A stretch of DNA of 43,671 nt from Candidatus Woesearchaeota archaeon. Lineage in GTDB: Archaea > Nanobdellota > Nanobdellia > Woesearchaeales > B72-G16. A program made the position numbers and the translations under genes. Position 1 is the first letter of the stretch; every line of letters starts with the position of its first letter. The stretch spans positions 1 through 43,671 of the forward strand of contig QMQO01000006.1 in NCBI GenBank assembly GCA_003650545.1. Direction: 5' to 3'. The notes under the pieces were generated by a model, which saw only the letters and a program-made list of their open reading frames with translations, made no database searches and was not told the DNA's origin. Of the stretch, positions 6,701-32,783 are shown one piece after another.

Positions 6701-9700
6701 TTGAAAACTTAACAACTGTACCACCAAGCAAATTAAGTAAAGGGATAACTTGGTACTTTAGAGTAAGCGTGTTTGATGGAACAGATTGGAGCAGTTATGC
6801 ACAATCTAACAGCATTCTTATACAGAATTTTGCACCAGAAGCGCAAAATGTTAGTGTTAGATCAACCGATGATCCGTTCAACAGAACAAATGGTAGCTTA
6901 ACTGTAGGTTATACATACTTTGATTATGACGGTGATGTGGAGGTATCTAAACAAATAATATGGTATAAGAATGGTGCTGAGATAACTAGCCTAGAAAATG
7001 AAACAACCGTCCTAAGTGGAAACACTTCAAAAGATGATGCATGGAATTTTACAATAAGGGTGTATGACGGAACAGATTGGAGCGTGTATACTGCCTCAAA
7101 TGTACTTTTAGTAGAAAATACACCGCCTACTCAAGCAACTCCTATTTTATTTCCAGACCCTGCTTACAGGTTGGATAACATAACGTGTTACAATCAGTCA
7201 ACAGCAGATGTTGACGCTGATAATGTTATAAATTATTATAACTGGTATGTGAATGGTGTTCCTGTATGGACCACAAGTAACACACACATACTAGGAACAG
7301 GAAATTTTAGCAGCGGCGATCTAGTGGTTTGTCAGGTTACGCCTTATGATGGTGATGATAACGGAACTAGCTTAAATGGCTCAATTGTTATATCGAATCA
7401 TGCTCCAACTTTGACGGCGATCAATATAGAGCCCAATGCAGGCAGATACAATACAGATTTACGTGTTGTGAGCTTTAACGCGTCTGACCTTGATGGTCAT
7501 AACTTATCCTTAAGGTGTGGTGATGTTTCAGGCATACGTAATTTGTGTAATTCGTCCTATGGTGTGCCAGAAAGATTGTGTGTGTTTGCATCGCTTTGGA
7601 GTGACGATGTCGCGCATATAGTGTACTGTGTTGTGGATGATAACATAAATGAATCAGGTGAGGTTGCAGCAACATTCCTTGCAGATAACACACCTCCTTC
7701 TAGTTTGAGCATTATCAATATAGGAGGGGATACAACGCCACCCTACTGGGATACTGTGAATGATAATCAAACAGTTGTTTATGCTCAAGGAGAACTTCTA
7801 ATGGTGTGTAGATGGGCTAGGCAAGATATAAACTTTAGTAGTATGCCTGTGAACCAGCAATGTATAATATCTGGTACAACCGCCATGTGTAACTTCGGTA
7901 GCCTAGACTTAAACATATCTAATACAGGATATTATATCAGTTGTGAAGATCAATACGGTAATGAACAAAATAGCAGTAATAACCTTGATGTGCCTGCGTT
8001 TGGTACTGATTGGAGTGCACCACAAACAACACACAACATAGTCCCTGGTTATATATACAAACCACCATTTAATGTGACATTGTTTGAGTTTGATGTTCCT
8101 GTTGGAACAAATGTCACTACATACTGTTGTGTTGATTTAGCCGGAATATGTACACCAAGTATCACATGTGACGATGGATTGGTTGGATTTAATAACATAA
8201 ATGTTTCAATAAATGAATCTTATCGTGGCATTGCTCATCTAAGATATTACTCAATTGATTCTGCAAATAATAATCAGACGCCGTTAGTAGATATTCCTGT
8301 GATTGTAAATAATCTTTCGGTTGTAAATGCCATGAGCTATACTAATTTGACTAAGCACAAATTTACTGCTAGTTTGGATGCATATGATGTAAATTATCAG
8401 AACTTGACGTGCTGGCTACATCATAGACTTTCTACAAATGGAATATACAACACAACCCAGATGATATTTGTATCAGGATTGTCATACAATGGCACATTTG
8501 CTGCAAACATATCTAGTGGTGAACTGGTCAGGATAAATGCAGAAGATGTCGACGATAGTGCTGGAGAGTTTAATTCTGGGACGCATGGCTTTACAACTTA
8601 TAATGCAGGACTCAGGTTAAAGAACTGGAGCCTAAATTATGCAGGGGATGCTAGCACGGCAGCGAGCACAAATAACGGACTTACAAGTAAGATTAATGAT
8701 GGTGATATTAATACGTATTGGCAGGGAACAAATGCAAGCTTGCCTGCATGGATAACATTGACATTCCCTGAACCAAGGGTTGTGAAGAGATTCGAGTTTA
8801 ATTTTAGCCATGACTTGAACTATACACCAAGCGATTATTGGTTGCAGTACGACGACAATGGTAATTTTGCAGATGGTGGAACTGTTAACATAACTGTTGT
8901 TGCAGGCAACACGAACAAAGAGCCTGTATATAGCTTTTCTCCTGTAACAAGTAAATATTTTAGGATATACATAACAGCAACAAATGGAAATAACCAAACA
9001 CAAGAGAACATAACACTTGTTGAATGGGAGGTTTATGAGCAACCACAATATTTTGGGAACTTTACCTCAGCTACGATTGATGGTGGCGTAGATGTAAACT
9101 GGAGGAATATCAGCTGGGTGAGCAGCATTACAGCTGGAAATAATATAACTATGTACACAAGGAGTGCTGCAACAATTCAAGGACTAAGCGGAGCCGCATG
9201 GCAACAAGTCTATAACAGCAGCGGAGATTTTATACCTAGTTTAGATCTTAGATATTTACAATATCGTGCTGTTTTCGCAACTAATGATACAAATATAACA
9301 CCTGTATTGACAAAGGTCAATATTACATATATCCGAAACTATAATTATACTATTTATGATGCAATCGAAACGTATGTAAATTGCTCTGATGGCTTAGAGA
9401 ATGGAACAGGGACAACAAGTATTAATTCAATACCAAATTACGCACCAACAAAACCAATATTACTGGCGCCTTCTAACTTGTCTGTTGTATATAACCCAAG
9501 TGTAATGCTTAACTTTACAGCAAGCGATGCTGATAATGATACTATTACTTATTATATCTATGCTGACACAACTACATCACCGACAACTCTGAGAGGTATT
9601 ACAAACAATAACTACTATGACTTAACTATCGTAACTGGTTCGTATAACTGGAGGGTGCGTGCATATGACGGGACTGATTGGAGCGATTATAGCGACGTGT

Positions 9701-11931
9701 GGAACTTTACAATATATAACTTAGACACGTGGTTCCCTGAAACTGACGATAACACAACCGAGAGCTGGCAAAACTGGTACACAACAGATCAACTAATCAA
9801 GCTTAATGCTAGCGATATTGGCCTTGGCTTGAACTACACTGCATACTGTACATACGATTATGGAGCAAGCCCTTGTAGCAACTTTACATTAAGTTATAGT
9901 AATGAGACATTTATTTCTTTAGTCTGTCCTACTGGAACTGGTTGTCAGAAAAAGATCAGATATTATAGTGTAGATAAACAGCCAAATGTAGAAGCGATAC
10001 AAGAGACTCATGTGATATACATAAACAAAGCAGGCGGGTTGATTAATCTGACGAATGCTAGCAAATGTTACATAGCAATTGCAACAAACATGACCAACAG
10101 TGTGTGTAATAACTCTGACAAGATTAATTCTAGTATATTTAGCAGTACGAATGTTAATTCTAAGGTGTGGAACTCGTATGAAAACAACTGTAATATATAC
10201 GATTCTCAGTTTAATTATAGCACCTGTGTTACATCAACAATAAACATCTCAACAATACTACATAGTAGTGTAGATACATGTCTATTAACAAATGTTACAT
10301 ATAACTCAGCAACATGTCTGAATAGTAACGATAGTTATTCTACACAATATTCTGGAAGCTTGTTGATAGATCCATCTGATGCTAGCAATAACTCTTATTA
10401 TGGGATTGTTGAGATACATAATACTTCAGTTTATAATTCTATTTTAGATGATTGTGTTCTCAATAGAGATACTATTAACTACACTAATTGTAATGAATCG
10501 AGAATTGATGATAGCGATGTTTATTTATCAACACTAACAGAATCAAATGTTTCTGAATCAACTGTGATTAACTCAACTATTATCGGTTCATATGTGTATA
10601 ATATTACTCTGATTAATGTAACGATCATCAACGGTGTTATAACTTCTGGTAATGTTACCTATATGGGGGTCACGTATACAGCAGGGGATAACTTAATTGC
10701 AGTATATTGTGGCGATAATATAATTAATTACCCGATCATTGGCATATTCGAGACTTGTCTAAGTTGTCCTGCTGATCTTGGACCTTGTCCTACAACACCA
10801 ACAGGTGGTGGGGGTGGGAGGGGTAGATGTTATCCTAGATATAATTGTAGTGAATGGACACAATGCATGTTCGGAGAGCAAACACGGAGATGTGTTGATA
10901 AAAATAAATGTAGAATCATGCCATTTGTAGAAGAAAACGGAGAAATAGTACAATACCAAACAAGAGTTTGTGAAGTTGTATCTTGTTTAGATGGGATACT
11001 TAACCAGGATGAAACAGATGTCGATTGCGGTGGATCAATTTGTGATCCTTGTAAGGATGGCAAGACTTGTGCTACTGGTATGGATTGTCTGAGTGGAGCA
11101 TGTGAACGCTTTATGTGTGTGAGCTGTAAAGACGGTATATTAAACCAAGATGAAGAATCGATTGATTGTGGTGGTGTTTGTGGTGAATGTGTTCTTATGA
11201 TAAGAGGTGTTGAAAAAGAATATAATATGAGTCAGGTTATGATTTTAAGTGTGGTTGATATTAATGAGAACCCTGTTTCAAATGTAACTGTTATTATAAC
11301 TACACCTTCTGAAAAAAAGATCGAACTTGTAACTGACATTTATGGTAAGATTAGTTTAGTAATTGAAGAGAAAGGTGAATATAAGATAGAAGCCAATAAG
11401 GCAGGTTACCATAAACAAGAGACTAAAACAAAAGGACAATTTATCATAGTACCAAAACCTTATAGAGTAAACATTTCAGATGTACTATATGATTTGTTAT
11501 TGAAAATGTCATTGAAAATCGGCAACATTGCTGAAAATTATAAATATTATATTACTAGCATTGGTATTGTACTTGTACTACTGTTTATAGTATTGGATTT
11601 AAAAAAAGTCCGCTATGTTAGACACCTAGCAGAATTCAGCTATTATCAACATAAGAGTAAGAGGAGTGTAATTAACAAACTCAAAAAAGAAAATCTTGCA
11701 AAGAAAAAGAAAATAGTTGACAAAGTATACAATGTTCTTCAAGCAAGAGATAAAGCAAAGCAATTAAAAGAAAAAGAGAGAAAGGAAAAGATGAGAACAT
11801 TAAAAAAAATGATTGGTTGGGATGGTGTAAGAAAGACTGCCCGCACAAGGAAAATTGAGATGAAACTGGAGGAAGAAGATAAAAAATTAATTGATAGGCT
11901 AGATAAACTTAGTAAAAAATTTAAAAAATGA
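700..11931 (+). CDS. Giant membrane-anchored surface protein A (3743 aa): N-terminal TM, parallel beta-helix, Ig/cadherin-like repeats, F5/8 type C-like domain, Cys-rich stalk, C-terminal TM, basic cytoplasmic tail
   Basis: Continuous ORF. Hydrophobic segments FVVGVAIVVALMVIVLLPL and YYITSIGIVLVLLFIVL. Very dense N-x-S/T sequons. CPADLGPCPTTPTGGGGG linker. Repeated C-DG-LNQDE-DCGG motifs. Confidence 0.9.
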   Translation: MKPGTRERSVKGVKQYTRNNARNKFVVGVAIVVALMVIVLLPLSFVGMSTKNDTSEINPKPLVELKDKFGDYSGSYNIKEINGKYDVVLVRDQKNNIEIKGVKGTVIKAKIDSVEDKKIKTEVAAVESLEFDSATIKLEKKDFVDVILKCNNFNVDSFECESDWDETNIPFVDLGDSIEFNVTSFSGYAGGKIEESEVEIKSVTNVDNCINITSSGSYKMIQSISNAVNYCINISTSNVTFDCDGNTITGSRGVNIIFAVNQSNITIKNCVLKDSSRGILFLNINDTIIEYNNISNMSAMAIWLQKVDLFGHNNTIRNNNCSHSGRGIALEAHDSVIDNNVVNYNSVYGISWVGNRNNITNNIVNYNVNGLAATCSSYYNLVDNNDFRFNNQNSLYCACCTTVLNNDFSNNTGQYCLVINYAYNSYLKNNTFNSCDIGIDINSGKNSTIIDNEIKNNSIFGIRLISRGTAGYYVADNLITKNNITNSGVSGIYINSSAGEPVENNTFYDNIINETTHVLFEGVNYTNYWNTTKTTATNIVGGNYIGGNYWGKPDGTGFSDTCIDSNYDGICDVVYDVINDSTCTLGVNCTNNVDYLPLATPPPRTNLTIWDSNDTAGGGTIAYTNAQIIFYANYTYANGTVINDTMGGSCKINFSDSTNNDMNFNSSSGLYEYNRIFLTTGFRVYNVTCTGVGLGINISDNLTLELGNGTVTTTIVSPTGTSYNSSENEFFLVKVNVSCSGGDCKNVNVSLDPKPNVYSLFLDPSPVYFNAVTYCKINISNASGDLLRVEFNLTSPRGISYISNGTPYENLYFSEEFVANETGTWICNITAQSTDGNITKNSTTFVPSSKSGAVSTTTGDVPFYTNTSNPKNCTLSNHGQYCLLSWWVNATGSINTMWEFYAEANSTVTSDISNKVNVTIVGSVQPLISNITLNSIVESLTNTTIIAIGEKDYEQENLTFYCSYSNLPNATNTFCIGGSIFQISAPYNLNCTFTADNNSANDVVYCRVWDGYKYSKTVSTSYLDNHRPSLTSLSISPNTGKYNVSINVTSVSAFDSDGHNLRIKCGNSSNQYNLCTSGFGAGQRSCTFNSPWTDNANHQIYCVVEDIYSYMSAERNIKFVSDNTPPIQGVVDNVEGDMTPKYWDTDDDDNTVIQINVFETGVKCRYSSTDLNYSSMPWTQNCSVAGSIASCNVWNLVGGQTNETNVSISCIDMYGNEQNASSNSDVVFGIDWTKPSISTDNDGAIHLPGYVVNFTVNDQPPGTIVYAKYCNDTTGICGPYFDIINGSYVVFNQRGVWYLRYNASDEAGNYNETKQTVVMINQLPQISPLQFVNITPHKFNATSIVLDNDSSQTLHCKIYHRIVNNLYGNKTLILVDGISTNGTYTQNISDADGYNITDVVEMYVNCNDTLEEINSSILYHRIPNFIPTYTIINDRYWDEDMNLTNNISLDSLFADLDGDTLTYTSNGTINITVDIISGNVSFIVPEDWFGREYVQFRANDSSKSSNITNVVQLTVYSIPDITMTAYNGTNYDGITKEFVGNMYVKVADEHSYIENISAGKINFTEKINFTRDINIDSTVTLKHNYVEIDGSTWPELDKKAIITFTGLTELFTPNIYILKDGIRCDNTTDCDIIYYNKTEGVVIFNVTGFSNYTAVNENTPPNITNINIIPSFAYSRSNLNCSVIAYDFEQANLNVSFYWYKNGVRNTTWDSNVSCIKNVLCYTGVLVPNASTSRYDNFTCVAYASDGTYYSNLSNTTKMIINEPPYFDFALTAQTINHTQNLIYDINCTDYDSGDIITYYDNTTLFDINSSTGLIFDAPTQAETGTYNVLITCSDGLDNTTHSFVYTIVNNAPLLQNIVLNSTDALNRTVGNISVYYTYYDPDLDPEQNYIIKWYNNSVEVGAFENLTTVLNGNITKGETWKTSINVYDGLYWSGWYNSSQLLIRNYAPAVVNATLNSTDLLNRSNGSLNAYYVFVDNDTIDSEQTKIIKWYRNGFVQPLLENLTTVPPSKLSKGITWYFRVSVFDGTDWSSYAQSNSILIQNFAPEAQNVSVRSTDDPFNRTNGSLTVGYTYFDYDGDVEVSKQIIWYKNGAEITSLENETTVLSGNTSKDDAWNFTIRVYDGTDWSVYTASNVLLVENTPPTQATPILFPDPAYRLDNITCYNQSTADVDADNVINYYNWYVNGVPVWTTSNTHILGTGNFSSGDLVVCQVTPYDGDDNGTSLNGSIVISNHAPTLTAINIEPNAGRYNTDLRVVSFNASDLDGHNLSLRCGDVSGIRNLCNSSYGVPERLCVFASLWSDDVAHIVYCVVDDNINESGEVAATFLADNTPPSSLSIINIGGDTTPPYWDTVNDNQTVVYAQGELLMVCRWARQDINFSSMPVNQQCIISGTTAMCNFGSLDLNISNTGYYISCEDQYGNEQNSSNNLDVPAFGTDWSAPQTTHNIVPGYIYKPPFNVTLFEFDVPVGTNVTTYCCVDLAGICTPSITCDDGLVGFNNINVSINESYRGIAHLRYYSIDSANNNQTPLVDIPVIVNNLSVVNAMSYTNLTKHKFTASLDAYDVNYQNLTCWLHHRLSTNGIYNTTQMIFVSGLSYNGTFAANISSGELVRINAEDVDDSAGEFNSGTHGFTTYNAGLRLKNWSLNYAGDASTAASTNNGLTSKINDGDINTYWQGTNASLPAWITLTFPEPRVVKRFEFNFSHDLNYTPSDYWLQYDDNGNFADGGTVNITVVAGNTNKEPVYSFSPVTSKYFRIYITATNGNNQTQENITLVEWEVYEQPQYFGNFTSATIDGGVDVNWRNISWVSSITAGNNITMYTRSAATIQGLSGAAWQQVYNSSGDFIPSLDLRYLQYRAVFATNDTNITPVLTKVNITYIRNYNYTIYDAIETYVNCSDGLENGTGTTSINSIPNYAPTKPILLAPSNLSVVYNPSVMLNFTASDADNDTITYYIYADTTTSPTTLRGITNNNYYDLTIVTGSYNWRVRAYDGTDWSDYSDVWNFTIYNLDTWFPETDDNTTESWQNWYTTDQLIKLNASDIGLGLNYTAYCTYDYGASPCSNFTLSYSNETFISLVCPTGTGCQKKIRYYSVDKQPNVEAIQETHVIYINKAGGLINLTNASKCYIAIATNMTNSVCNNSDKINSSIFSSTNVNSKVWNSYENNCNIYDSQFNYSTCVTSTINISTILHSSVDTCLLTNVTYNSATCLNSNDSYSTQYSGSLLIDPSDASNNSYYGIVEIHNTSVYNSILDDCVLNRDTINYTNCNESRIDDSDVYLSTLTESNVSESTVINSTIIGSYVYNITLINVTIINGVITSGNVTYMGVTYTAGDNLIAVYCGDNIINYPIIGIFETCLSCPADLGPCPTTPTGGGGGRGRCYPRYNCSEWTQCMFGEQTRRCVDKNKCRIMPFVEENGEIVQYQTRVCEVVSCLDGILNQDETDVDCGGSICDPCKDGKTCATGMDCLSGACERFMCVSCKDGILNQDEESIDCGGVCGECVLMIRGVEKEYNMSQVMILSVVDINENPVSNVTVIITTPSEKKIELVTDIYGKISLVIEEKGEYKIEANKAGYHKQETKTKGQFIIVPKPYRVNISDVLYDLLLKMSLKIGNIAENYKYYITSIGIVLVLLFIVLDLKKVRYVRHLAEFSYYQHKSKRSVINKLKKENLAKKKKIVDKVYNVLQARDKAKQLKEKERKEKMRTLKKMIGWDGVRKTARTRKIEMKLEEEDKKLIDRLDKLSKKFKK
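1300..2490 (+). other. Right-handed parallel beta-helix (PbH1/NosD-like) domain of giant protein A
   Basis: Repeating N-rich rungs such as NSTIIDNEIKNNSIFGIRL and NNITNNIVNYNVNGL. Confidence 0.75.
3892..4005 (+). repeat. Four-Cys module copy A1 (C-x9-C-x10-C-x15-C)
   Basis: CGNSSNQYNLCTSGFGAGQRSCTFNSPWTDNANHQIYC. Confidence 0.85.
7516..7629 (+). repeat. Four-Cys module copy A2
   Basis: CGDVSGIRNLCNSSYGVPERLCVFASLWSDDVAHIVYC. Confidence 0.85.
8611..9060 (+). other. F5/8 type C (discoidin)-like domain in giant protein A
   Basis: ASTNNGLTSKINDGDINTYWQG...WITLTFPEPRVVKRFEFNF...SKYFRIYITATNG...ITLVEWEVYEQ matches the discoidin-like pattern. Confidence 0.7.
10030..10680 (+). other. Ser/Asn/Thr-rich short-period repeat region, probable beta-solenoid stalk
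   Basis: Short-period S/N-x-hydrophobic pattern, e.g. ESNVSESTVINSTIIGSYVYNITLINVTIINGVI. Confidence 0.5.
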
Positions 11932-14900
11932 ATAGAAAAGTTTTGAATTTGATTATCGTAATTGTTCTAGTATTCTGCGCAATGATAATGGTAAATATAT
12001 CCATAAATGTACTTGCTTTTGAAAGTGCAGGGGTAGACACAACTGCGAGTCTTGATTATATAGAAATTAATCCTGAACGTGGCAAATATAATGTGTTAAT
12101 CACTGTAAATAGCTCTGGTGCTGATGGTGGTGATGTTGATAATGTAACTCTGATGTGTGGCAACATAACTGGCGTATATAACTTGTGTAATTCTACATGG
12201 GGTTCTCCCGAAAGAAGTTGTAATTTTAACAGTCCTTGGGTTGATGATGCATTGCACACTATTTATTGTGTTGTTAAAAATACATTTAATAATACATCCC
12301 CTGAAAGAAATGCTATCTTCACTGCAGATAACACAGCTCCTATAACATTAGGGGTACTTAATGTAGAAGGAGATACCGATGCTAAATTTTGGGATACAGA
12401 TGATGATAGCAATACAGTTATTCAGGTTAACCTAAACGAAACTGGTGCTGCGTGCAGGTATTCTAGTTTAGACATAAATTATAGTAGTATGCCTCCGGCT
12501 CAGAGCTGCTCTGTTGTTGGAAGTTTGGTAAGCTGTAATGTTTGGAATCTTGTTGGAGGACAGATTAACGAGACTAATGTTTCTATAAGTTGTATTGATA
12601 TGTATAATAACGAGCAAAACTCCACACAAAACATAGATGTTGTGTTTGGAGTAGACTGGACTGAGCCAAGTATTAATACAGATAATGATGGCCAGATCCA
12701 TCTACCAGGCTACGTTATCAACCTTAGCGTGAATGATCAGCCTCCCGGAACAATAGTTTATGCTAAATATTGTAATGACACTATTGGAACTTGTGAACCT
12801 TATCTTCCATTTAATGATGGAGATAGCGTAACATTCGACCAGAGAGGTACTTGGTATTTGAAATATAATGCTAGCGATGAAGCAGGTAATTATAATGAGA
12901 CAAAGGAAACGATTATATTCATAAACCAGATGCCGGCTGTTAGTGCTCAAGTATATAGTTATCAAGCGCCACACAATATTGTAGTAAATATTACTGTTTT
13001 GGAGAATGATTCATCGCAATCAGTAGTCTGTTCTATTAAACACAGAAAAAATGCTAGCTTTGACGTTTTTAGCAATAAAACAATGTCTCTGGTTTCAGGT
13101 GTTTCAACTAATGGAACATTCCAAGCGATACTATCGCATCTTGATGGTTACTTTATTGGCCAAGCACTCCAGACTTATGTTAGTTGCTATGATGGCATGG
13201 AGTTTGTTAATTCTACTTTTAACTCCACAATTATGCCTAATATAAAACCAATTCTTTTAGTAGATGTGCCTGATGTTTATATGAAAGAAGACACGCCATC
13301 TGTTGACGTATTTGATTTGGATAATTATTTCAATGATCCTGATGGAGACATGTTGACATATACTTCTAATGGAAGTCATATTTTTTCTAGCTTTGATGGT
13401 GATAATAATGTAACTTTTCTCTCTACCCCCCAAAACTGGTACGGTTTTGAGTACATACAATTTAGAGCGAATGATAGTAGTATAGATAGTAACACAAGTA
13501 ATATTGTGAATGTAACTGTCTATTCTGTACCGGATATTCAACTTGGCATGTATTCTGGTACAGATTATGATTCACTAGCAGAAATATTTGCTGGAGATAA
13601 ATATGTAAAGATTGCTAACAAATATAGTTATATCTATAATAGTTCGTACACTACGATCAATTTTAGTGATAAAATCAATTTTACAAGGGATATTAACATA
13701 AGCGATGTGTTTGTGATAAAAAGGAATTATGTTAGTGCTAACACAACTGCTTGGCCTGAGATCAACAAGAGCGCAATAATTACATTTAATCAGTTAGATG
13801 AGATATATACTGACGAGATTTATATAATTAAAGACGGTATCCGGTGTGACCACACAAATCTTTGTGATGTCATTGAATGGAACAAAACAACCAAAACCGT
13901 TATTATAAATGTTACATCATTCAGCACATATTGGATTGCAAATTCGCAGACATTGCCAAATGTTACCACGCCAAATATAACGCCAAGTCCTGCATATGCT
14001 AATGACACATTAAGTTGTATAACCAATGTAACCGATGTGGAGCAGGAACTTGTAAATGTAAGCTTTACATGGTATGTGAATGGTGTGTACAACAGTACTT
14101 GGGATACTACTGTGACCTGCAATACTACAATCAAGATTTGCCATACTAATGTACCAATAGACAGCAGCTACTTAACTAAGTTTGACAATTTTACATGTAG
14201 CGTGCAGGCGTACGATGGGATTAACTACAGTGTTCCAAAGAATAATTCACAAGTAATTAGTAATTATATACCTGTGTTTGATTTTGTGTTGACGGATCAA
14301 AGCATTAATCATACAGAAAACTTAACTTATGACATAAATTGTTCAGATCCTGTTGACTTTGATACTTTGTACTATTATGATAATACATCATTGTTTGATA
14401 TTGATATCAATAACGGAAGTATTGTAGATGATCCGACTGTGTTTGATACCGGTCAACATTCTATACTAATAACATGCGGCGATAACTGGGACAACAGTAC
14501 AAATAGTTTTAATTACGAAGTGAAGGATGTTGCGCCTGTTGTGACAAATGTTATCTTAAATTCAACTGACATAGGCAACTTAACGACAGGGAACCTTACT
14601 GTCTATCACACATATAGCGATTATGAAGGTGATACTGAACAAGGTATTTGGATCAAATGGTATATTAACGCGAGTGAACAAACTAACCTTGAAAACTTTA
14701 CTGTTGTGTTAGAAGGAAACACAAGCAAGCATGAAGTATGGTGGGTGCGTATTGCAGTGTTTGATGGAGCCAAATGGAGTGCTTTCAATAATTCCAATAA
14801 TGTAACTATACGAAATACGGCGCCTGTTTTTGACTTTTCATTAGGAAAACAAAGTCTGAATCATACAGAAAACCTAACTTATGACATAAATTGTAGCGAT

Positions 14901-17900
14901 AATGATGGTGATGTAATTATTTACTATGATAATACTACGTTGTTTAGCATAAATGCTTCAACAGGATTAATAAAAGACAACCCAACTGTATTTGAGACTG
15001 GTGAATATGCTATATTGATAATTTGTAGTGATGGGGAAGTTAATGTAACAGGTAACTTTGTATATGAGATCAATGACAGTACACCATATTTAACCAATGT
15101 GCTTATAAACAGCACAGATCCTGGAAATAGAACAAATGGAAGCCTTATGTTGAATTATGTGTTTAATGATTTCGACAACGATTCTGAAATCGATAGAGAG
15201 GTTATTTGGTATAAAGGGGATGTTGTGCAGCCTGCTTTAGAAAATCAGACTGTTGTGCTGAGTGAAAATACTACGCGTGATGACGTGTGGGTTGCACGTG
15301 TTAAGGTTTTTGATGGTGCTAAATGGAGCGACGTTGTAAATTCTACTAGCATAACAATTGAAAATAGTGTTTTGGTATTTAGTCCAGATTTGGTTAACCA
15401 AAGTGTGTACCACAACACAAATTTAGTCTATGATATTAACTGTACTGACAATGATGGTGATGTTAAATATTTTGATAATACAAGCTTGTTTGATATAAAT
15501 CTTGATACTGGATTGATAGTTGATAACCCTTCCCAAGTCGAAACAGGGATTTATGCAATTAATATAACCTGTACATCTGAAGGTGATACAGAAACTGTTA
15601 GTCAAGTGTTCTTCTATACAATATTAAACAGATATCCCAATGCGACCAATGTGAGGCTCGTTTCAGATGATCTGTTGAATAGAACAAATGGAACACTAAT
15701 AGCTAGCTTCACATATAATGATGCTGATGGTGATGCTAAGCAAGATCAGCAAATAATTTGGTATAAAAATGATGTTCCACAAGCGGGTCTTGAGAATCGG
15801 ACAAGCATAGAAAATTATATAACTACAAAGCATGAGAACTGGAGTTTCTCTCTCAGAGTCTACGACGGGTTGTATTGGAGTAATTACACTAATTCGACCA
15901 CATTAACCATAAAAAATAGTAAACCTACACATACCTACCCTAGAATAACTCCTGATCCTGTGTTGTTCGATTATAATCTAACGTGTTATAATCAGTCTAC
16001 TAATGATAATGACGAAGATTCTGTCACGAATTACTATATGTGGTATGTTAACGACACACTTGTGTGGACAGCTAGCAATTATTTAATATTTGATAATTTT
16101 AGCATTGGTGACAATATTACTTGTCAGGTTATTCCATTTGATGGTGAAGAGAACGGTACTGCTCTAAACACGACTGTTGAAGCGACAAACGGCGAGCCAA
16201 CATTCAGCACTGTATTGGTTAATCCTGCAGCAGGAAAACTAAACACAAACATAACCCTTACAACTATTAATGCGATTGATTATGAAGGAGATGATATCCA
16301 ACTAAGATGTGGTGATTCTCCAGGTGTAAGAAATCTATGTAATTCTACATTTGGACAACCAGAAAGGAGCTGTAGTTTCTATAGTCCATGGAACGATAAC
16401 GAAATTCACGCAATATATTGTGTTGTTGTAGATGCTACAGATGTTTCGCTTGAGAAAACTGTTACTTTTATAGCAGACAATCTTGCACCTATAATAAGCA
16501 CTAGCAACCTGTCGGATATTGCTGGCGATTCTATTGCACCTTATTGGGACGTCATTAATGATGGACAAACTGCATTAACATTTAACTTCAGTGAACCTTT
16601 GTTAAGATGTAGATGGTCTACAACAGATACAAATTATAATAATATAAGTTCAAGTCACGAGTGTTTGATTGTTGGTAATGATTCAATCTGTTACCTAGGT
16701 AGCCTTGCGATGTCTGTTTCTAACATAGGTTATTATGTAAGTTGTATCGACATATACGATAATGAAAACACTCAAACGGATAATGTTGATGTCCCTATAT
16801 TTGGTACCGACTGGAGAGCACCGGATACATATACGGATGTGAATGAAAGCGAGGTTTATGTTCCAGCACATGATGTCATTATTATAGAACACGATTTGCC
16901 TACAGGGACAAATGTGACGACATATTGTTGTTTGGATCAAGCAAATGTATGCGTTCCAAATAGCAACTGTGATGATGGTGCAACTGGACAAAACAATATA
17001 ACTATTCCTGTAGCAATAAGAGGGACTAACTTCATCAGATATTACTCAATAGATGGTGCTGGCAATAATCAATCATTACAGAGCAAAAATGTTACAATAA
17101 ATAGTTTACCTGTAATAGCTGCACAGGAATATTTCAACTACACCAAAAATCACATATTTAGTGTGATTGTCAATGCTTCCGATGTTAATGAACAAACGTT
17201 AAAGTGTTATCTACAGCACAGATTGGCAGGAGAGATTGATTATACTACTAAGCTAATGTCTTTGACTAGTCTTATTGCAAGTAATGGAACATTTGCTGTA
17301 AATATTAGCATGGCTGATGGCTATACGCCTGGAGATAACATAGAGATGTATGTAAACTGTTCGGATGGGCTCGAGAATTCAAGCACTGCTCTTACTAGAA
17401 ATATGCTACCAAATAATGCACCTGCTGTACCAACCTTAATCTCTCCTGTAAACGAAACGATCACAAACAGTAGCCCAATATTATTTAATTATTCGAGTAA
17501 TGATGTTGACACCATAGATAATCTAACGTATTACATAATAGCAGACACTAATCGTAGTCCAACAACAGTGATATTTGTAACACCTAATACAAGTTATAGC
17601 TGGACGCCTATCGAGAATAGATATTATTGGAAAATAATTGTAAGCGATGGGTTTAGTAACACAACCTCTGATACAAAAACATTCTTATTAGATACCTCTT
17701 CTCCAGTTACAACAGACAATGTAAGTAACTGGTATGATTATGTGCCTACTGTAATTGGCTTGAATGCTACAGATAATCTGGCTGGAATCAACTACACTAG
17801 GTATTGTGTGACAGATGCCAATTCAACATGCGATCCTATAAATAACGGGACTTACGGGACTGAGATAACTATTTTGTGCGGTGTAAATACAGCTTGCCAA

Positions 17901-19559
17901 AAAATAATAAGATACTATAGTTTTGATAATGCAAATAACCAAGAAATTATTGAGCAGAACTTTGTCTACATACAAACAGCAGGAGGAGTTGTTAACACTA
18001 CAGAAGCTGTAAATTGTACAATTTATGATTATACAAACATGACTAACAGTGTGTGTAATGATAGTGTAAAACGACGTTCTTTGATAATAAACAGTTTCAA
18101 CTATGATGGAACCTATGTTGAGAATAGTACAGAGATAAATAGCACCCTCAAAAATGTTGATGTGTTCTTGAGTCAGATATTTAATTCAAGTGTTAGCGAC
18201 TCATACTTATACAATATGACGTTGTATTCTGCAAATGTCACAGATAATAAAATAATTAACGGAACTATTGGATATCTAGGTATAAATTATACAAGTGGAT
18301 CTGTAATATCTTTACTATGTGGAGACGGTATTCTTGATTATCCTGTTCTTGGAACATTTGAAACGTGTTCAAGCTGTCCTGCTGATCTCGGACCTTGCCC
18401 TACAACACCAACAGGTGGCGGGGGTGGACCAAGCAGAAGGGGAGGGGGCGCCTTTTATGGTGTTGGATTAGAATGTATACCAATATGGACTTGTGAACCA
18501 TGGGGAGAGTGCGTATTTGGTTTGCAAAATAGAACTTGTAAAGACACTCACAGATGTCGCCCCTCACAAGAAGATCTTATGTCTGGGTTGATGTATATTA
18601 AAGGTATCGATGTTTATAGAACAGAGACGCAAGCGTGTGAATTCATGACTAAAGAGAAAGCAGATCTGGATGTTGTAAACACTAGTAGAGATGTGTTCTT
18701 AGAAAAAGAATATTTCTTGATAACCATAAATGGAGAGGAACATAAAATTGTTGTAAGTAAGGTTTATAAGAAATATGTAGACCTTATAATTTACTCATCA
18801 GAGATGCATTTAAACATAAACATTGGCGAAAGTGTGGATCTTGATTTGGATGAGGATGGAACTAATGACTTGAGAATTATCTTAGAGGATATTGTCGAAG
18901 GTAAAGCAATCATAAGGTTTGAAAAAATAAAAATAGTTTTAGTAGAGGAAAAGCCGACACTGGAAGAGGTTTCGGCTATCTCTGATGTTGAAAAATATAG
19001 CTTGATTTTCTATTTAACAGGAATATTCTATGGGGTTATGTTATTTATTGCTTTATTTGTTATCGTTAATTTGGTGATAAAAGCAGTTTATGTGATTTAC
19101 GAAAAGAGTCAACCCCCAGAATTCAAGTTCACAAAGGCCAAGGAAAAGAGAATGAAGACTCTTAGGGAATACAAATTAGAAAAGAAAGTGAAGACTGTTG
19201 GTAGAATTAAAAAGATGAAAGGTGTTGATGTCACTGTTTTAAAGAAAGTACATGATGGCAAAACACTAAGAATGATGCAGAAGCTGAAGCCAACAGATGA
19301 AGAGATAAAAGATATTAATAAAAAGATCAAGCTTCTAAGTATGGGAAAAGGGATAGAGACAGACAAAGGACTTGAACAGATAGAAGAATTGTTGAAGAAG
19401 ATTAAAATCAAGAGCCAAGAAGAGAAAGAAAAAGAAAATATTGAGAAAAGAGTTAAGCAACTAAAAAGAAAGCAAAAGAAAGGACATAAGTTGGACGAAA
19501 AAGAAAAAAGGGAGCTTATTAGTTTAGAATCCAAAGTCAAAAGAGTCAAAGTAAGATGA
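11928..19559 (+). CDS. Giant membrane-anchored surface protein B (2543 aa), paralogue of A lacking the N-terminal beta-helix region and the F5/8C-like domain
   Basis: Continuous ORF with ATGA overlap to A. N-terminal hydrophobic segment, Ig/cadherin-like repeats, CPADLGPCPTTPTGGGGG linker shared with A, C-terminal TM (YSLIFYLTGIFYGVMLFIALFVIVNLVI), K/E-rich tail. Confidence 0.9.
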   Translation: MNRKVLNLIIVIVLVFCAMIMVNISINVLAFESAGVDTTASLDYIEINPERGKYNVLITVNSSGADGGDVDNVTLMCGNITGVYNLCNSTWGSPERSCNFNSPWVDDALHTIYCVVKNTFNNTSPERNAIFTADNTAPITLGVLNVEGDTDAKFWDTDDDSNTVIQVNLNETGAACRYSSLDINYSSMPPAQSCSVVGSLVSCNVWNLVGGQINETNVSISCIDMYNNEQNSTQNIDVVFGVDWTEPSINTDNDGQIHLPGYVINLSVNDQPPGTIVYAKYCNDTIGTCEPYLPFNDGDSVTFDQRGTWYLKYNASDEAGNYNETKETIIFINQMPAVSAQVYSYQAPHNIVVNITVLENDSSQSVVCSIKHRKNASFDVFSNKTMSLVSGVSTNGTFQAILSHLDGYFIGQALQTYVSCYDGMEFVNSTFNSTIMPNIKPILLVDVPDVYMKEDTPSVDVFDLDNYFNDPDGDMLTYTSNGSHIFSSFDGDNNVTFLSTPQNWYGFEYIQFRANDSSIDSNTSNIVNVTVYSVPDIQLGMYSGTDYDSLAEIFAGDKYVKIANKYSYIYNSSYTTINFSDKINFTRDINISDVFVIKRNYVSANTTAWPEINKSAIITFNQLDEIYTDEIYIIKDGIRCDHTNLCDVIEWNKTTKTVIINVTSFSTYWIANSQTLPNVTTPNITPSPAYANDTLSCITNVTDVEQELVNVSFTWYVNGVYNSTWDTTVTCNTTIKICHTNVPIDSSYLTKFDNFTCSVQAYDGINYSVPKNNSQVISNYIPVFDFVLTDQSINHTENLTYDINCSDPVDFDTLYYYDNTSLFDIDINNGSIVDDPTVFDTGQHSILITCGDNWDNSTNSFNYEVKDVAPVVTNVILNSTDIGNLTTGNLTVYHTYSDYEGDTEQGIWIKWYINASEQTNLENFTVVLEGNTSKHEVWWVRIAVFDGAKWSAFNNSNNVTIRNTAPVFDFSLGKQSLNHTENLTYDINCSDNDGDVIIYYDNTTLFSINASTGLIKDNPTVFETGEYAILIICSDGEVNVTGNFVYEINDSTPYLTNVLINSTDPGNRTNGSLMLNYVFNDFDNDSEIDREVIWYKGDVVQPALENQTVVLSENTTRDDVWVARVKVFDGAKWSDVVNSTSITIENSVLVFSPDLVNQSVYHNTNLVYDINCTDNDGDVKYFDNTSLFDINLDTGLIVDNPSQVETGIYAINITCTSEGDTETVSQVFFYTILNRYPNATNVRLVSDDLLNRTNGTLIASFTYNDADGDAKQDQQIIWYKNDVPQAGLENRTSIENYITTKHENWSFSLRVYDGLYWSNYTNSTTLTIKNSKPTHTYPRITPDPVLFDYNLTCYNQSTNDNDEDSVTNYYMWYVNDTLVWTASNYLIFDNFSIGDNITCQVIPFDGEENGTALNTTVEATNGEPTFSTVLVNPAAGKLNTNITLTTINAIDYEGDDIQLRCGDSPGVRNLCNSTFGQPERSCSFYSPWNDNEIHAIYCVVVDATDVSLEKTVTFIADNLAPIISTSNLSDIAGDSIAPYWDVINDGQTALTFNFSEPLLRCRWSTTDTNYNNISSSHECLIVGNDSICYLGSLAMSVSNIGYYVSCIDIYDNENTQTDNVDVPIFGTDWRAPDTYTDVNESEVYVPAHDVIIIEHDLPTGTNVTTYCCLDQANVCVPNSNCDDGATGQNNITIPVAIRGTNFIRYYSIDGAGNNQSLQSKNVTINSLPVIAAQEYFNYTKNHIFSVIVNASDVNEQTLKCYLQHRLAGEIDYTTKLMSLTSLIASNGTFAVNISMADGYTPGDNIEMYVNCSDGLENSSTALTRNMLPNNAPAVPTLISPVNETITNSSPILFNYSSNDVDTIDNLTYYIIADTNRSPTTVIFVTPNTSYSWTPIENRYYWKIIVSDGFSNTTSDTKTFLLDTSSPVTTDNVSNWYDYVPTVIGLNATDNLAGINYTRYCVTDANSTCDPINNGTYGTEITILCGVNTACQKIIRYYSFDNANNQEIIEQNFVYIQTAGGVVNTTEAVNCTIYDYTNMTNSVCNDSVKRRSLIINSFNYDGTYVENSTEINSTLKNVDVFLSQIFNSSVSDSYLYNMTLYSANVTDNKIINGTIGYLGINYTSGSVISLLCGDGILDYPVLGTFETCSSCPADLGPCPTTPTGGGGGPSRRGGGAFYGVGLECIPIWTCEPWGECVFGLQNRTCKDTHRCRPSQEDLMSGLMYIKGIDVYRTETQACEFMTKEKADLDVVNTSRDVFLEKEYFLITINGEEHKIVVSKVYKKYVDLIIYSSEMHLNINIGESVDLDLDEDGTNDLRIILEDIVEGKAIIRFEKIKIVLVEEKPTLEEVSAISDVEKYSLIFYLTGIFYGVMLFIALFVIVNLVIKAVYVIYEKSQPPEFKFTKAKEKRMKTLREYKLEKKVKTVGRIKKMKGVDVTVLKKVHDGKTLRMMQKLKPTDEEIKDINKKIKLLSMGKGIETDKGLEQIEELLKKIKIKSQEEKEKENIEKRVKQLKRKQKKGHKLDEKEKRELISLESKVKRVKVR
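12156..12269 (+). repeat. Four-Cys module copy B1
   Basis: CGNITGVYNLCNSTWGSPERSCNFNSPWVDDALHTIYC. Confidence 0.85.
16308..16421 (+). repeat. Four-Cys module copy B2
   Basis: CGDSPGVRNLCNSTFGQPERSCSFYSPWNDNEIHAIYC. Confidence 0.85.
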
Positions 19560-19591: not shown

Positions 19592-19870
19592 TTGAGTCAG
19601 ATGCTTATTGTAAAATTTTTGGGGTTAATGGATTTGTTTTGTGCAGTTACGATTGTGTTGTTGAATTATGGTCTTATAAACAAACTCATTGCTGTTGGAG
19701 CAATTCTATATTTGATTGTAAAAGGTTTTATGTTTAGAAAGGATATCTCAAGTATCTTAGACGTAATAAGCGGATTATATATGTGTTTACTACTTCTAGG
19801 CTTTGGCTCTATTTTAACATTTATTTTTGTGGTGTATCTTGTTGAGAAAGGCATTATTTCTTTGGCATAG
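19592..19870 (+). CDS. Small multi-pass membrane protein
   Basis: 92-aa hydrophobic ORF, same strand, 32 nt after protein B. Confidence 0.6.
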   Translation: MSQMLIVKFLGLMDLFCAVTIVLLNYGLINKLIAVGAILYLIVKGFMFRKDISSILDVISGLYMCLLLLGFGSILTFIFVVYLVEKGIISLA

Positions 19871-19910: not shown

Positions 19911-20657
19911 TTAATCTATTTTTTTATAAAAGAATAAAAACATAAGCATCACAAGCAGGCCTATTGCTACTGATAAGAAGAGTAGTAAAATCAAGGGGGT
20001 ATGTAATAGTAGTAGTATTGAAGCTACAACTATAAAACCAAAAATAAAGAAGTAGGCTAGTTTGTTACCAAAGAAGATATTCATACCATCTGTATATGGT
20101 ATTGGAAGCACACTAAATATGGCAAACCAGATGTTGACAAATATAGCTGTGTTTATTAACGGATTCCCTTGGAACGGTGTTCTTAAAAGATAGAAAATAA
20201 ATGCGAGGGCTAGATTTGAGAGGGGACCTGCTGCAGAGACCATTGAGTGTGCACCTACATTAACACCGTATGGAAAATAACCAAGCCTGTGCTTAGCCAT
20301 TTTAGTTAGAATAATGGCTCCTGGTAAAATTATTAGTAGCTTTGCTTGAGATATTAAAGCTATTACTAAACTAACAAATAAACCAAGATACCAAGCTTTA
20401 AACTCTGCTTTATAGCCTAACTTTAAAGCGTATATTTTTTGTATAGATATGTGAACAACAACTGCTAATGTAACGATGAGAAACATGCTGAGTAAGTTGT
20501 GATACCAGTAAAAACCTAGTTCTTTCGATCCTGTCTTATCATCTATTCCAAAGATAAAACCAAAGATTAGAATGGTTAAGATCAAACCAGTAAATTCTCT
20601 TTTAGAGAAACGAAAATACCTTTTTATTTTGTCATACCAGTTATACAAACCACACAT
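19911..20657 (-). CDS. Site-2-protease-like (M50-like) membrane protein with degenerate HExxH
   Basis: AAGPLSNLALAF and LPIPYTDGMNIFFG resemble S2P GPxxN and PxxDG motifs. VVVHISIQKIYALKLGYKAEFKAW lies at the HExxH position. Confidence 0.65.
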   Translation of the reverse strand: MCGLYNWYDKIKRYFRFSKREFTGLILTILIFGFIFGIDDKTGSKELGFYWYHNLLSMFLIVTLAVVVHISIQKIYALKLGYKAEFKAWYLGLFVSLVIALISQAKLLIILPGAIILTKMAKHRLGYFPYGVNVGAHSMVSAAGPLSNLALAFIFYLLRTPFQGNPLINTAIFVNIWFAIFSVLPIPYTDGMNIFFGNKLAYFFIFGFIVVASILLLLHTPLILLLFLSVAIGLLVMLMFLFFYKKID

Positions 20658-20667
20658 ATTTTTATGA

Positions 20668-21378
20668 CTAAGTAGTGCTTGTTTTTATATATTTTGTTTT
20701 TACTAATTTGAGAATAGCTTCTTCATGACCTGCACCAACAATAGCTAATATTTTTTTATCTGGGAAATGTTTCATTAGCCCTGTCAGATTTTTAGCCATT
20801 ACTCTGTTTCTATCTACAATCAAACTTTTGTAGATGTTAGGATAACGATATTTCAGGTCTTGAATTAATTTATTTATTGTTGCTTGGCTAGGTACCTTAG
20901 ACAAATCAAGATTTTCCAAACCGTATTTTTTAAGTTGTTTTTTTTTGAAGAATATTCCTTTGAATACATCTGCAATAAAGCGAAAACGTTCTTTCCAAGT
21001 GAAAGTTTTTGAGAATTCTTTCATGGTGACTAATATATCCTGATCAATTAAGGCTAATCTAAGTTGTAGCTTTTGAGCTAACCTTATAGCCTCTTTCATC
21101 TCTTCCCCAGGAAGTACGCCAACTTTGCTTCCTAATTTTTTTTGAATATAAGAACCAATCAAAGTAAATAAATAACCTTTTAGACCAATGTGTTTTATTA
21201 AAGCCAGGTTAGGTCTTGGGCGTTCTTTTGACATTAAAGCTGCAAGACGTTGTTTGTCAAGTTCAAGGGCTATTATCCCCGGCATCTCGGTTAGTATTAA
21301 ATGTCTTACTTCCTTATAAGACTGTCTAGCTATATGAGATGTACCGATTATAATCAAATTTTTATATCTTAATACCAT
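20668..21378 (-). CDS. TraB/PrgY-family protein
   Basis: N-terminal IIGTSHIA, IALELDKQRL, C-terminal AIVGAGHEEAIL. Confidence 0.8.
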   Translation of the reverse strand: MVLRYKNLIIIGTSHIARQSYKEVRHLILTEMPGIIALELDKQRLAALMSKERPRPNLALIKHIGLKGYLFTLIGSYIQKKLGSKVGVLPGEEMKEAIRLAQKLQLRLALIDQDILVTMKEFSKTFTWKERFRFIADVFKGIFFKKKQLKKYGLENLDLSKVPSQATINKLIQDLKYRYPNIYKSLIVDRNRVMAKNLTGLMKHFPDKKILAIVGAGHEEAILKLVKTKYIKTSTT

Positions 21379-21542: not shown

Positions 21543-21812
21543 GTGTTAAAGATGAAAAAAATTTCTGAAACTTATGATATGAAAGTTTTTACAGATTCTG
21601 GTGAATATTTCGGCGATATTGAAGAGAGTATACTAACTCAGAATAAGATCTTTGGTTGGCGTGTGAAAGCAACAAAAAATTCTTTCCTAAACAAGGTTCT
21701 TGGTAGTGCAAAAGGCGTTATAGTGCCTCATCAGCTAGTCAAATCAATCGGAGATATAATGATAATAAGCAGGGCTGCTGTTCCAAGTTATTCGGGAGAA
21801 GAGGAGAAGTAA
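21543..21812 (+). CDS. PRC-barrel domain protein
   Basis: KVFTDSGEYFGDIEES...IIVPHQLVKSIGDIMIIS pattern. GTG start preceded by AAAGGAGGG at 21528-21536. Confidence 0.65.
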   Translation: MLKMKKISETYDMKVFTDSGEYFGDIEESILTQNKIFGWRVKATKNSFLNKVLGSAKGVIVPHQLVKSIGDIMIISRAAVPSYSGEEEK

Positions 21813-30149: not shown

Positions 30150-32783
30150 ATGGATTTCAATGAAATTGAAAAGAAATGGCAAAAAAGGTGGGAATTAGCA
30201 AATGTGTTTGAAGCAAAGGAAGAGTCTAAAAAGAAGAAGTACTATGTTTTAGAGATGTTTCCTTACCCATCTGGATCTGGCTTACATATGGGTCATGCTC
30301 GAAATTATATCATAGGGGATGTATATGCTAGATTCAAAAGAATGACTGGTTGGAACGTACTATACCCTATGGGATATGATGCTCTTGGCCTTCCAGCAGA
30401 AAATGCTGCAATTCAGGCTGGAAAACATCCAAAGATATTCACCTTAAATGCGATTAAGAATTTCATTAAGCAACAGAAAGAGCTTGGACTGAGTTATGAT
30501 TGGAATCGATTGTTGAAGAGCTGTGATGTGGAATATTATAAATGGAACCAATATTTCTTCTTAAAACTATATAAAAAAGGCCTTGTGTATCGAAAGAAAG
30601 CTCCTGTTAACTGGTGTCCAGAGTGTAACACTGTATTAGCTAACGAACAGGTACATGGCGGAAAATGTTGGAGGCATACCGATGTAGATGTAGAAATTAA
30701 ACATCTCGAACAATGGTTTATCAAAACAACTGCATATGCTGATGAACTTCTTGAAGATGTTGAAAAATTAGATTGGCCAGAAAGAATTAAGACTATGCAA
30801 AGAAACTGGATTGGTAAAAGCCACGGAACAGATATTTATTTTAAGATTAATAATCAAAACTGGAGAATATTTACAACCAGAGCAGATACAATTTACGGTG
30901 TTACTTTCATGGTTATATCAGCACAACATCCTAAATTGATGGAACTTGTATCAGAAAGACAAAAGAAAGAAGTTGAAGCATTCTTGAAGAGAATAAAATC
31001 AACAAGCGAAAAGGATATAGAAGAGCTTGAAAAGGATGGCGTATTTACAGGAAGCTATGCAATAAACCCTTTGACAAATGAGAAAGTTCCTGTTTATGCA
31101 GGTAATTTTGTTTTGGCAGAATATGGTAGCGGAATGGTTATGGCTGTTCCTGCGCATGACCAAAGAGATTTTGAGTTCGCCAAAAAATATAAAATACCCA
31201 TAAAGGTTGTTATTGAGCCAGGCGAGTATTCTTTAAATCCAGAAAAGATGTCTAGAGCTTACACTGGAGATGGAACATTGATCAACTCAGGGGAGTTCAA
31301 TGGGTTGAATAACAGAGATGCTATTGAAGAAATATCAAAATATCTAGAAAAGAAAAAATTGGGCAAAAGAACTGTCCAGTATAAGCTAAGGGACTGGCTG
31401 ATATCAAGACAAAGATATTGGGGAACCCCTATACCTTTTATATACTGTGAAAAATGTGGACTTGTTCCTGTTCCTGAAAAAGATTTGCCAGTTGTTCTAC
31501 CTGATGATGTAAAATTTGGTGAGGGCAATCCGTTAGCGACAAACAAAGATTTTGTAAACACAAAATGCCCTGCTTGTGGCGGATCCGCCAAAAGAGAGAC
31601 TGATACGATGGATACATTTTTTGATAGTAGCTGGTATTTCTTAAGATTCACAGATAACAAAAACGATAAAGAGCCGTTCAGTAAAAAGAATGTGACTTAC
31701 TGGATGCCAGTAGATACATATATTGGTGGAGCTGAGCACGCATGTATGCATTTGATTTATGCGAGGTTCTTCACAAAAGCATTAAGAGATCTGGGGTATT
31801 TTAAGTTTGATGAGCCATTTACCAAACTCTATAACCAAGGTATGCTCCATGGTGAAGACGGCCACGTGATGTCTAAGTCACGCGGAAATGTTGTGTTGCC
31901 TGAAGAGATATCCAAAAGATTCGGTATAGATGCTGCCCGTTTCTTTTTGATGTTCGTTGCTGCACCTGACAAGGATGTGTTGTGGAGTGATAAGGGGATA
32001 CAGGGTAGCTTCAGGTTTGTGCATAAACTAATTTCTTTATTTGATAAGAAAAAATCTACAGAGTCTGACTCATTACTAGATACTAAAATGCATAAAACAA
32101 TAAGAGAAGTAACAATGAAAATTGAAAACTTCCAATACAATCTTGCATTAATAGATTTGATGGAGTTTGTTAAGTTTTTGTCTGACAGAGAAAAAGTAAC
32201 AAAAAAGTGTCTAGAGAATTTACTTTTGATGTTATCGCCATTCTGTCCACATCTGTGTGAAGAACTGTGGGAAAAATTAGGAAATGTGGAAATGGCTGTA
32301 ACGCAAAATTGGCCAGAGTATGATGAAAAAAAGATCGATGAAAGAGCAGAAGCCATAGAAGAATTAGTTTCTGGTCTAAGAAGTAATATCTTAGATATTC
32401 AAAGGTTAACTAAAAAAAAGAGATTGAGAAAAATTACGCTGATAATTGCTAAAGATTGGAAATCCAAATTAATGAAGTCAATTAAAAAAGAATTAGAAAA
32501 AATATACGATGTTGGAGAAATCATGAAAAATATATTAAAGAACAAAGACTTAAAAGACCATAGCAAGGATATACAAAAACTATTACCTAAATTGGTTAAG
32601 AAACCTGGCTTAATACCAAGAATTGTTTTGGCGCAGACCGAAGAAGAAGCTGAGATTAATAAAAGGAAAGATAAATTAGAAAAGGAATTCTGTTGTGAGA
32701 TTGAAGTTGTCAGAGAACAAGATAGCAAAGAAACAAAAGCTAAACACGCCATGCCTGGGAAACCAGCCATAATTGTCGAATAA
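30150..32783 (+). CDS. leuS: Leucyl-tRNA synthetase: bacterial-type body with archaeal-type C-terminal domain
   Basis: EMFPYPSGSGLHMGHARNYIIGDVYARF, NWCPECNTVLANEQV, AVPAHDQRDFEFA, VMSKSRGNVV; C-terminus KAKHAMPGKPAIIVE. Confidence 0.95.
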   Translation: MDFNEIEKKWQKRWELANVFEAKEESKKKKYYVLEMFPYPSGSGLHMGHARNYIIGDVYARFKRMTGWNVLYPMGYDALGLPAENAAIQAGKHPKIFTLNAIKNFIKQQKELGLSYDWNRLLKSCDVEYYKWNQYFFLKLYKKGLVYRKKAPVNWCPECNTVLANEQVHGGKCWRHTDVDVEIKHLEQWFIKTTAYADELLEDVEKLDWPERIKTMQRNWIGKSHGTDIYFKINNQNWRIFTTRADTIYGVTFMVISAQHPKLMELVSERQKKEVEAFLKRIKSTSEKDIEELEKDGVFTGSYAINPLTNEKVPVYAGNFVLAEYGSGMVMAVPAHDQRDFEFAKKYKIPIKVVIEPGEYSLNPEKMSRAYTGDGTLINSGEFNGLNNRDAIEEISKYLEKKKLGKRTVQYKLRDWLISRQRYWGTPIPFIYCEKCGLVPVPEKDLPVVLPDDVKFGEGNPLATNKDFVNTKCPACGGSAKRETDTMDTFFDSSWYFLRFTDNKNDKEPFSKKNVTYWMPVDTYIGGAEHACMHLIYARFFTKALRDLGYFKFDEPFTKLYNQGMLHGEDGHVMSKSRGNVVLPEEISKRFGIDAARFFLMFVAAPDKDVLWSDKGIQGSFRFVHKLISLFDKKKSTESDSLLDTKMHKTIREVTMKIENFQYNLALIDLMEFVKFLSDREKVTKKCLENLLLMLSPFCPHLCEELWEKLGNVEMAVTQNWPEYDEKKIDERAEAIEELVSGLRSNILDIQRLTKKKRLRKITLIIAKDWKSKLMKSIKKELEKIYDVGEIMKNILKNKDLKDHSKDIQKLLPKLVKKPGLIPRIVLAQTEEEAEINKRKDKLEKEFCCEIEVVREQDSKETKAKHAMPGKPAIIVE

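Follow-up and report, generated by a model that had tools for sequence, protein, structure and literature searches.

Can a membrane protein that resembles a site-2 protease (S2P), but has lost the catalytic motif of these enzymes, be a maintained protein with a function of its own, and does the gene next to it indicate what that function might be? This question is raised by a locus within a contiguous stretch of 43,671 nucleotides (contig QMQO01000006.1, hereafter the window) from a Candidatus Woesearchaeota archaeon. A sequence-only reading of the window had described an S2P-like protein with a broken HExxH motif, encoded next to a TraB-family gene, and had suggested that it is an inactive pseudoprotease, perhaps a sensor or chaperone. 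We followed up this reading by comparison with relatives from the same order and beyond.

The S2P-like protein and its family

The gene located at positions 19911–20657 on the minus strand is a full-length open reading frame that begins with ATG and is free of internal stop codons; it encodes a membrane protein of 248 amino acids predicted to adopt the S2P/M50 fold. At the position of HExxH (residues 69–73; 20439–20453, minus strand) the protein reads HISIQ, within the interval 20430–20460 to which the broken motif had been assigned. As the catalytic glutamate and the second histidine are gone, the protein ought not to be classified as an active protease. The GPxxN and DG-like motifs are retained as had been claimed, namely as GPLSN (residues 144–148; 20214–20228, minus strand) and as LPIPYTDG (residues 184–191; 20085–20108, minus strand), the latter representing the metal-ligand DG motif of S2Ps. 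The tripeptide PGA (residues 112–114; 20316–20324, minus strand) corresponds to the "PG" segment of S2Ps, which is retained across the TraB-linked family. Between the PG and GPxxN motifs lies a segment of the type HRLGxFRYGxN that is conserved in the TraB-linked S2P family; in the window protein it reads MAKHRLGYFPYGVN (residues 120–133; 20259–20300, minus strand), and its residues R124 and G126 are found in 125 and 123 of 126 family members, respectively. No such segment was found in the three other M50 proteins of the window genome.

Compared with Pfam M50 on its own, the window protein gave a weak match (E = 0.062; 13.1 bits at a cut-off of 27.2 bits), and the family assignment was therefore examined via its relatives. 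A scan of genome contigs with the window protein alone returned zero relatives; a protein search, covering 288 genomes of the order, identified relatives in 273. The family most often matched by these relatives was PF02163 (19 of 20 members, best E = 1.2e-7). A profile constructed from 20 members recovered true intact archaeal S2Ps at 35–126 bits and placed HISIQ without gaps on the HESAH or HETAH of orthologous proteins. The gap-free alignment together with the PF02163 matches of the relatives indicates that the alignment of the broken motif is real and not due to chance. One single NCBIfam name for the TraB-linked S2P-like family was looked for and not found.

A model of the window protein calculated by AlphaFold from its sequence and those of 17 relatives reached a pLDDT of 89.5 and a pTM of 0.87. 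The best PDB match of this model found by Foldseek was the S2P of Methanocaldococcus jannaschii (MjS2P, PDB code 3b4r) with a probability of 0.99 and E = 0.044, followed by structures with probabilities of at most 0.41. TM-scores were low (0.36–0.39; 0.36 for 3b4r). For the intact family member L069, which carries HEAAH, 3b4r and SpoIVFB filled the top three places with a probability of 1.00, and the TM-scores were likewise about 0.4; low TM-scores are thus a trait of the family and no sign that the window protein differs from it. With relatives matching PF02163, GPxxN and PxPxxDG motifs present and a predicted S2P-like fold, the original family assignment stands.

The genome was also inspected for a second, intact S2P, as the sequence-only reading had recommended, and three further M50 genes with intact motifs were identified, encoding proteins of 392 (HEFAH), 208 (HELAH) and 216 amino acids (HELAH). 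A full-length M50 match above the cut-off was likewise present in all 45 tested relatives with a completeness of at least 90%. Even with activity lost at the locus studied here, the cell may therefore retain S2P function.

Recurrent loss of the HExxH motif

The state of the motif was determined for 126 distinct homologues at the level of the order. Glutamine occupies the position of the second histidine in 82 of them, histidine in 33 and another residue in 11. A fully intact HExxH occurs in 23 members (about 18%), 22 of which also possess the DG aspartate, and in these lineages the protein may still cut. The family is thus far from being intact throughout, the situation in which the sequence-only reading would have ascribed HISIQ to a sequencing error or a single decay. 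The catalytic glutamate is retained in 27 of the 33 members with the second histidine versus 2 of the 82 with glutamine. Both residues go missing together (Fisher p = 1e-17, computed on rows), and phylogenetically independent pairs changed the same way in 6.8 cases and the opposite way in 0.0 cases on average.

Members of the glutamine type include, besides HISIQ, motifs such as HISAQ, HDFGQ, RLSCQ and KVSVQ. Constant in this group are Gln73, by which it is defined, several glycine and proline positions, R124 and the glycine of the DG motif, which is found in 126 of 126 homologues. What is conserved among relatives is consequently the glutamine at the second-histidine position, whereas the HISIQ string as such, the first histidine and the position of the glutamate vary. 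Gln73 is unlikely to be a mutational accident: seven residues are one step away from the histidine codons, yet glutamine accounts for 82 of the 93 rows without histidine, these rows not being independent of each other. One can speculate that such a fold binds metal or catalyses a reaction by means of H69, Q73, D190 and the HR..FR segment. The retention of Asp190 in 73 and of the first histidine in 54 of the 82 glutamine-type members, the recurrence of the same replacement and the nearly invariant, family-specific R124 are consistent with a non-canonical enzyme of this kind. However, the catalytic glutamate has mostly been exchanged for isoleucine, leucine or valine, 28 of the 82 glutamine-type members have R, Y, K, Q, N or W instead of the first histidine, and glutamine is a poor zinc ligand as a matter of general chemistry, so that we consider this explanation quite improbable.

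A phylogenetic tree was constructed from 95 rows with the motif columns left out; it is unrooted by itself and moderately supported. Intact and broken members interleave on this tree. The intact/broken label requires 13 changes, at least 7 of which are forced by well-supported branches, and none of 200 bootstrap trees explained it with one change; for the glutamine label, 24 changes are required and at least 14 forced. Clear switches are seen where L153 (HESAH) adjoins L175 (HVSIQ), where L177 (HQSVQ) is nested in a clade with HESAH and HETAH, and where L240 and L248 are nested in a clade with HEAGH, HEIGH and HESAH. TraB-linked members from this and other orders fall almost all into one clade nested among ordinary S2Ps with HELAHK, which makes loss the likely direction of change. 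Gene conversion by an intact paralogue may also have restored the motif. Several independent losses within the TraB-linked S2P family are, in our view, highly likely.

The ratio dN/dS of closely related broken pairs was about 0.04–0.21 versus 0.06–0.14 for intact pairs. These pairs come from relatives, since the window genome is the sole one sampled from its family, and constraint in the lineage of the window is accordingly read from its kin. Catalytic residues have thus been lost in proteins that are under purifying selection, as judged from 82 glutamine-type members among 126 and from the dN/dS values of relatives. The lack of any close kin with which HISIQ could be compared, together with the long branch of the window protein, would fit a relaxed, decaying gene or an error of sequencing or assembly in this genome alone. 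The open reading frame is nevertheless full-length, the same glutamine is shared by 82 of the 126 relatives, which belong to tens of families, and selection on these relatives is strong. The decay or error reading is thereby largely refuted, and we assign it a very slight chance. It is very probable, with hardly any reservation, that the window encodes a dead S2P-fold protein and no artefact. The initial suggestion of an inactive pseudoprotease is thus well borne out at the family level as far as sequence can tell, given the widespread and recurrent loss, purifying selection, the predicted S2P-like fold and the intact S2Ps elsewhere in the genome. Apparently, M50 annotations in these archaeal genomes often tag dead proteins.

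Two further observations were made among class-level loci. L216 and L221 encode S2P-like proteins with YETCM/YETGI motifs and no TraB gene nearby; here HExxH was lost independently once more, in proteins that do not belong to the TraB-linked group. Three S2P relatives of 470–490 amino acids (L275:3773–5251, L276:1839–3308 and L278:890–2305, all on the minus strand) carry an additional N-terminal multi-helix membrane domain of about 230 amino acids; HExxH is intact in two of them and not in the third.

A short TraB protein as conserved neighbour

The gene upstream of the S2P-like gene (20668–21378, minus strand) encodes a short-form TraB/PrgY protein of the TIKI fold with 236 amino acids (PF01963, E = 1.6e-19). 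It stops 10 nt ahead of the start codon of the S2P-like gene; close adjacency on the same strand had been recognised before, albeit with a gap given as 11 nt. Both GxxH motifs were located in its sequence, the first as GTSH (21334–21345, minus strand) and the second as GAGH (20725–20736, minus strand), and GxSH and GAGH are both present in 69 of 73 TraB partners, so that TraB, for its part, appears to be intact. Paired histidine and glutamate residues are used by TIKI-fold enzymes (PMC6254334). With the PF01963 match, the TraB assignment of the neighbour is firm. Compared with TIGR00261, the window TraB scored 142 bits (curated cut-off 178) and covered positions 3–215 of 380, so it is not a full-length member. 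TraB proteins of the order are generally short, extending over positions 3–219 of this 380-position model, and the window TraB lacks the C-terminal membrane half. The idea that the C-terminal membrane half of full-length TraB is itself an S2P homologue was considered, but on inspection by eye the sequences of L290 and L291 showed no S2P motifs. An apparent TraB–S2P fusion in L175 (open frame of 497 amino acids) was likewise dismissed: its N-terminal portion stems from a spurious frame that overlaps TraB, which the TraB profile detects at this place in another frame.

Of 104 order-level loci, 73 have TraB upstream in the same orientation (59 of them as the direct neighbour), and about 30% lack it at this place; these locus counts are approximate because a few loci duplicate one another. 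It adjoins 16 of 22 intact, 42 of 65 glutamine-type and 14 of 16 other members at order loci. The presence of intact and broken copies at one and the same locus identifies them as orthologues rather than mixed paralogues. Beyond the order, TraB-linked S2P-like genes were broken in 13 of 14 cases versus 7 of 34 unlinked genes (Fisher p = 4.6e-6 on phylogenetically non-independent rows). In five genomes of one family, a short TraB was present and the TraB-linked S2P was not detectable, which indicates that TraB can do without the pseudo-S2P.

Other neighbours are conserved as well. A divergently oriented gene for a PRC-barrel protein (21543–21812, plus strand) is conserved in 59 of 104 loci and is probably a matter of synteny only. 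A helicase-like gene, Hef-type by eye, is found downstream in 67 of 104 order loci. In 75 of 104 loci, the S2P-like gene is followed by a gene for a membrane protein of about 110 amino acids (e.g. L066:3501–3830 and L069:5716–6051) for which no convincing Pfam family was found; in the window genome, which is about 85% complete, it was not found by a search that had no positive control. As the PRC, small membrane and helicase-like genes are conserved nearby too, a conserved operon can persist for reasons other than a joint function of TraB and the S2P-like protein.

This leads to the reading that the protein is a stand-alone pseudoprotease (sensor, chaperone or substrate trap, comparable to EGY3 or the iRhoms) for which adjacency to TraB is leftover synteny. 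Loss of the catalytic residues from an otherwise strongly conserved protein agrees with such a role, as do the conserved PRC and other neighbours and EGY3 of plants, a protein without HExxH that stabilises other proteins of the chloroplast (PMC10978774). Yet TraB remains adjacent in loci from outside the order, which no longer have the small downstream gene, and there its presence tracks the broken motif; we therefore regard leftover synteny as unlikely, though still worth considering. An ordinary operon, in which TraB and the S2P would act on the same small peptides one after the other and loss of S2P activity marks lineages with the TraB step alone, appears somewhat less likely still. It would account for the intact S2Ps adjoining TraB in 16 of 22 intact loci and has a parallel in Enterococcus, where the S2P Eep reportedly processes a pheromone that is under the control of the TraB homologue PrgY (PMC7117660, PMC10202637), but it leaves the strong constraint on a dead protein unexplained.

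The remaining part of the window contains several features that are recorded here for completeness. A gene for a membrane protein of 92 amino acids without a Pfam match (19592–19870, plus strand) is convergent with the S2P-like gene, and relatives occur at the matching place (+1/+2, opposite strand) in eight other loci. Two tandem giant open reading frames on the plus strand (700–11931 and 11928–19559; 3743 and 2543 amino acids), the ends of which overlap by 4 nt, likely encode huge surface proteins; the second, which has no match in Pfam, is rich in Asn, Thr and Ser and appears to begin with a signal segment and to contain a membrane stretch close to its C-terminus. At 30150–32783 (plus strand), a leucyl-tRNA synthetase is encoded; the editing domain PF13603, its highest-ranking hit in Pfam, is typical of the bacterial-type enzyme, and a horizontal origin in this archaeon is possible.

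A putative membrane partner of TraB and comparison with known systems

The conserved linkage to TraB is the strongest clue to function and, combined with the strong conservation of the protein, suggests a role as partner or scaffold rather than as protease. We somewhat favour the explanation that a dead S2P-family member, genetically paired with a short TraB hydrolase, has shed proteolysis repeatedly and is now the membrane partner or adaptor of TraB. For a functional partnership as such, for which gene linkage is the basis, we see an even chance. The family would have originated from ordinary intact S2Ps of the HELAHK type. Once paired with TraB, the zinc/glutamate catalytic site would have become dispensable and then been lost many times independently, mostly ending in glutamine at the second histidine, whereas the six-helix membrane scaffold, the GPxxN and DG segments and the HRLGxFRYG segment were retained under strong selection. 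The pseudo-S2P might then be a membrane-embedded subunit which tethers TraB to the membrane and binds or presents its membrane-associated peptide or protein substrate, while the chemistry would be done by TraB; it may thereby stand in for the C-terminal membrane domain that is found in archaeal TraB of full length and missing from the short form. This adaptor mechanism is put forward tentatively in its details, and we infer the absence of activity, the physical contact with TraB and the presentation of substrate. With similar caution, one may picture a two-gene membrane system, widespread in a large archaeal clade, whose TIKI/TraB hydrolase would employ a former S2P as membrane subunit. Several lineages would then have given up the S2P active site independently, each tending towards His-to-Gln, so that Gln73 together with Asp190 would have taken on a new structural or binding role.

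Work on pseudoenzymes has mostly dealt with individual cases of loss. The present gene repeatedly has a live catalytic site in one lineage and a dead one in its sister lineage while keeping its syntenic position: in a large group of tiny archaea, the site appears to have been lost several times from a protein that is still strongly conserved, mostly beside a TraB gene. The locus hence resembles an experiment replicated by nature, which bears on the conditions under which an intramembrane protease can quit cutting and yet stay needed, and TraB is a concrete candidate partner for this enzyme family in these archaea. The papers searched yielded neither an account of S2Ps in Woesearchaeota or DPANN archaea nor one of an archaeal TraB–S2P pair.

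Among known systems, archaeal S2Ps of the MjS2P type (MEROPS M50; PDB code 3b4r) share the predicted fold, the PG segment, GPxxN and PxPxxDG with the window protein and provide its top structural match; the window protein differs by HISIQ in place of HExxH, the extra HRLGxFRYG segment and the pairing with TraB. The neighbour is a true member of the TraB/PrgY/TIKI N-terminal domain family (PF01963, TIGR00261) with both GxxH motifs; in contrast to it, the TraB proteins of Nanohaloarchaea and Methanobrevibacter carry a C-terminal membrane half. The enterococcal pair Eep and PrgY likewise places an S2P and a TraB protein in the same peptide pathway and is a lead only; there, Eep is chromosomal and active, and PrgY is plasmid-encoded. 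The well-studied iRhoms, pseudoproteases of the rhomboid type (PMC3149277), also maintain an intramembrane protease fold without its catalytic residues, but this is an unrelated serine-protease fold of animals. EGY3 of plant chloroplasts is, by its description, a maintained S2P homologue without HExxH to which a non-proteolytic role has been ascribed; it is a single plant protein, whereas the family described here spans an archaeal order, with repeated losses, convergent glutamine and a TraB neighbour. Pseudo-S2Ps are thus already known from plants, and parallel loss, the convergent glutamine and the link to TraB are what is new.
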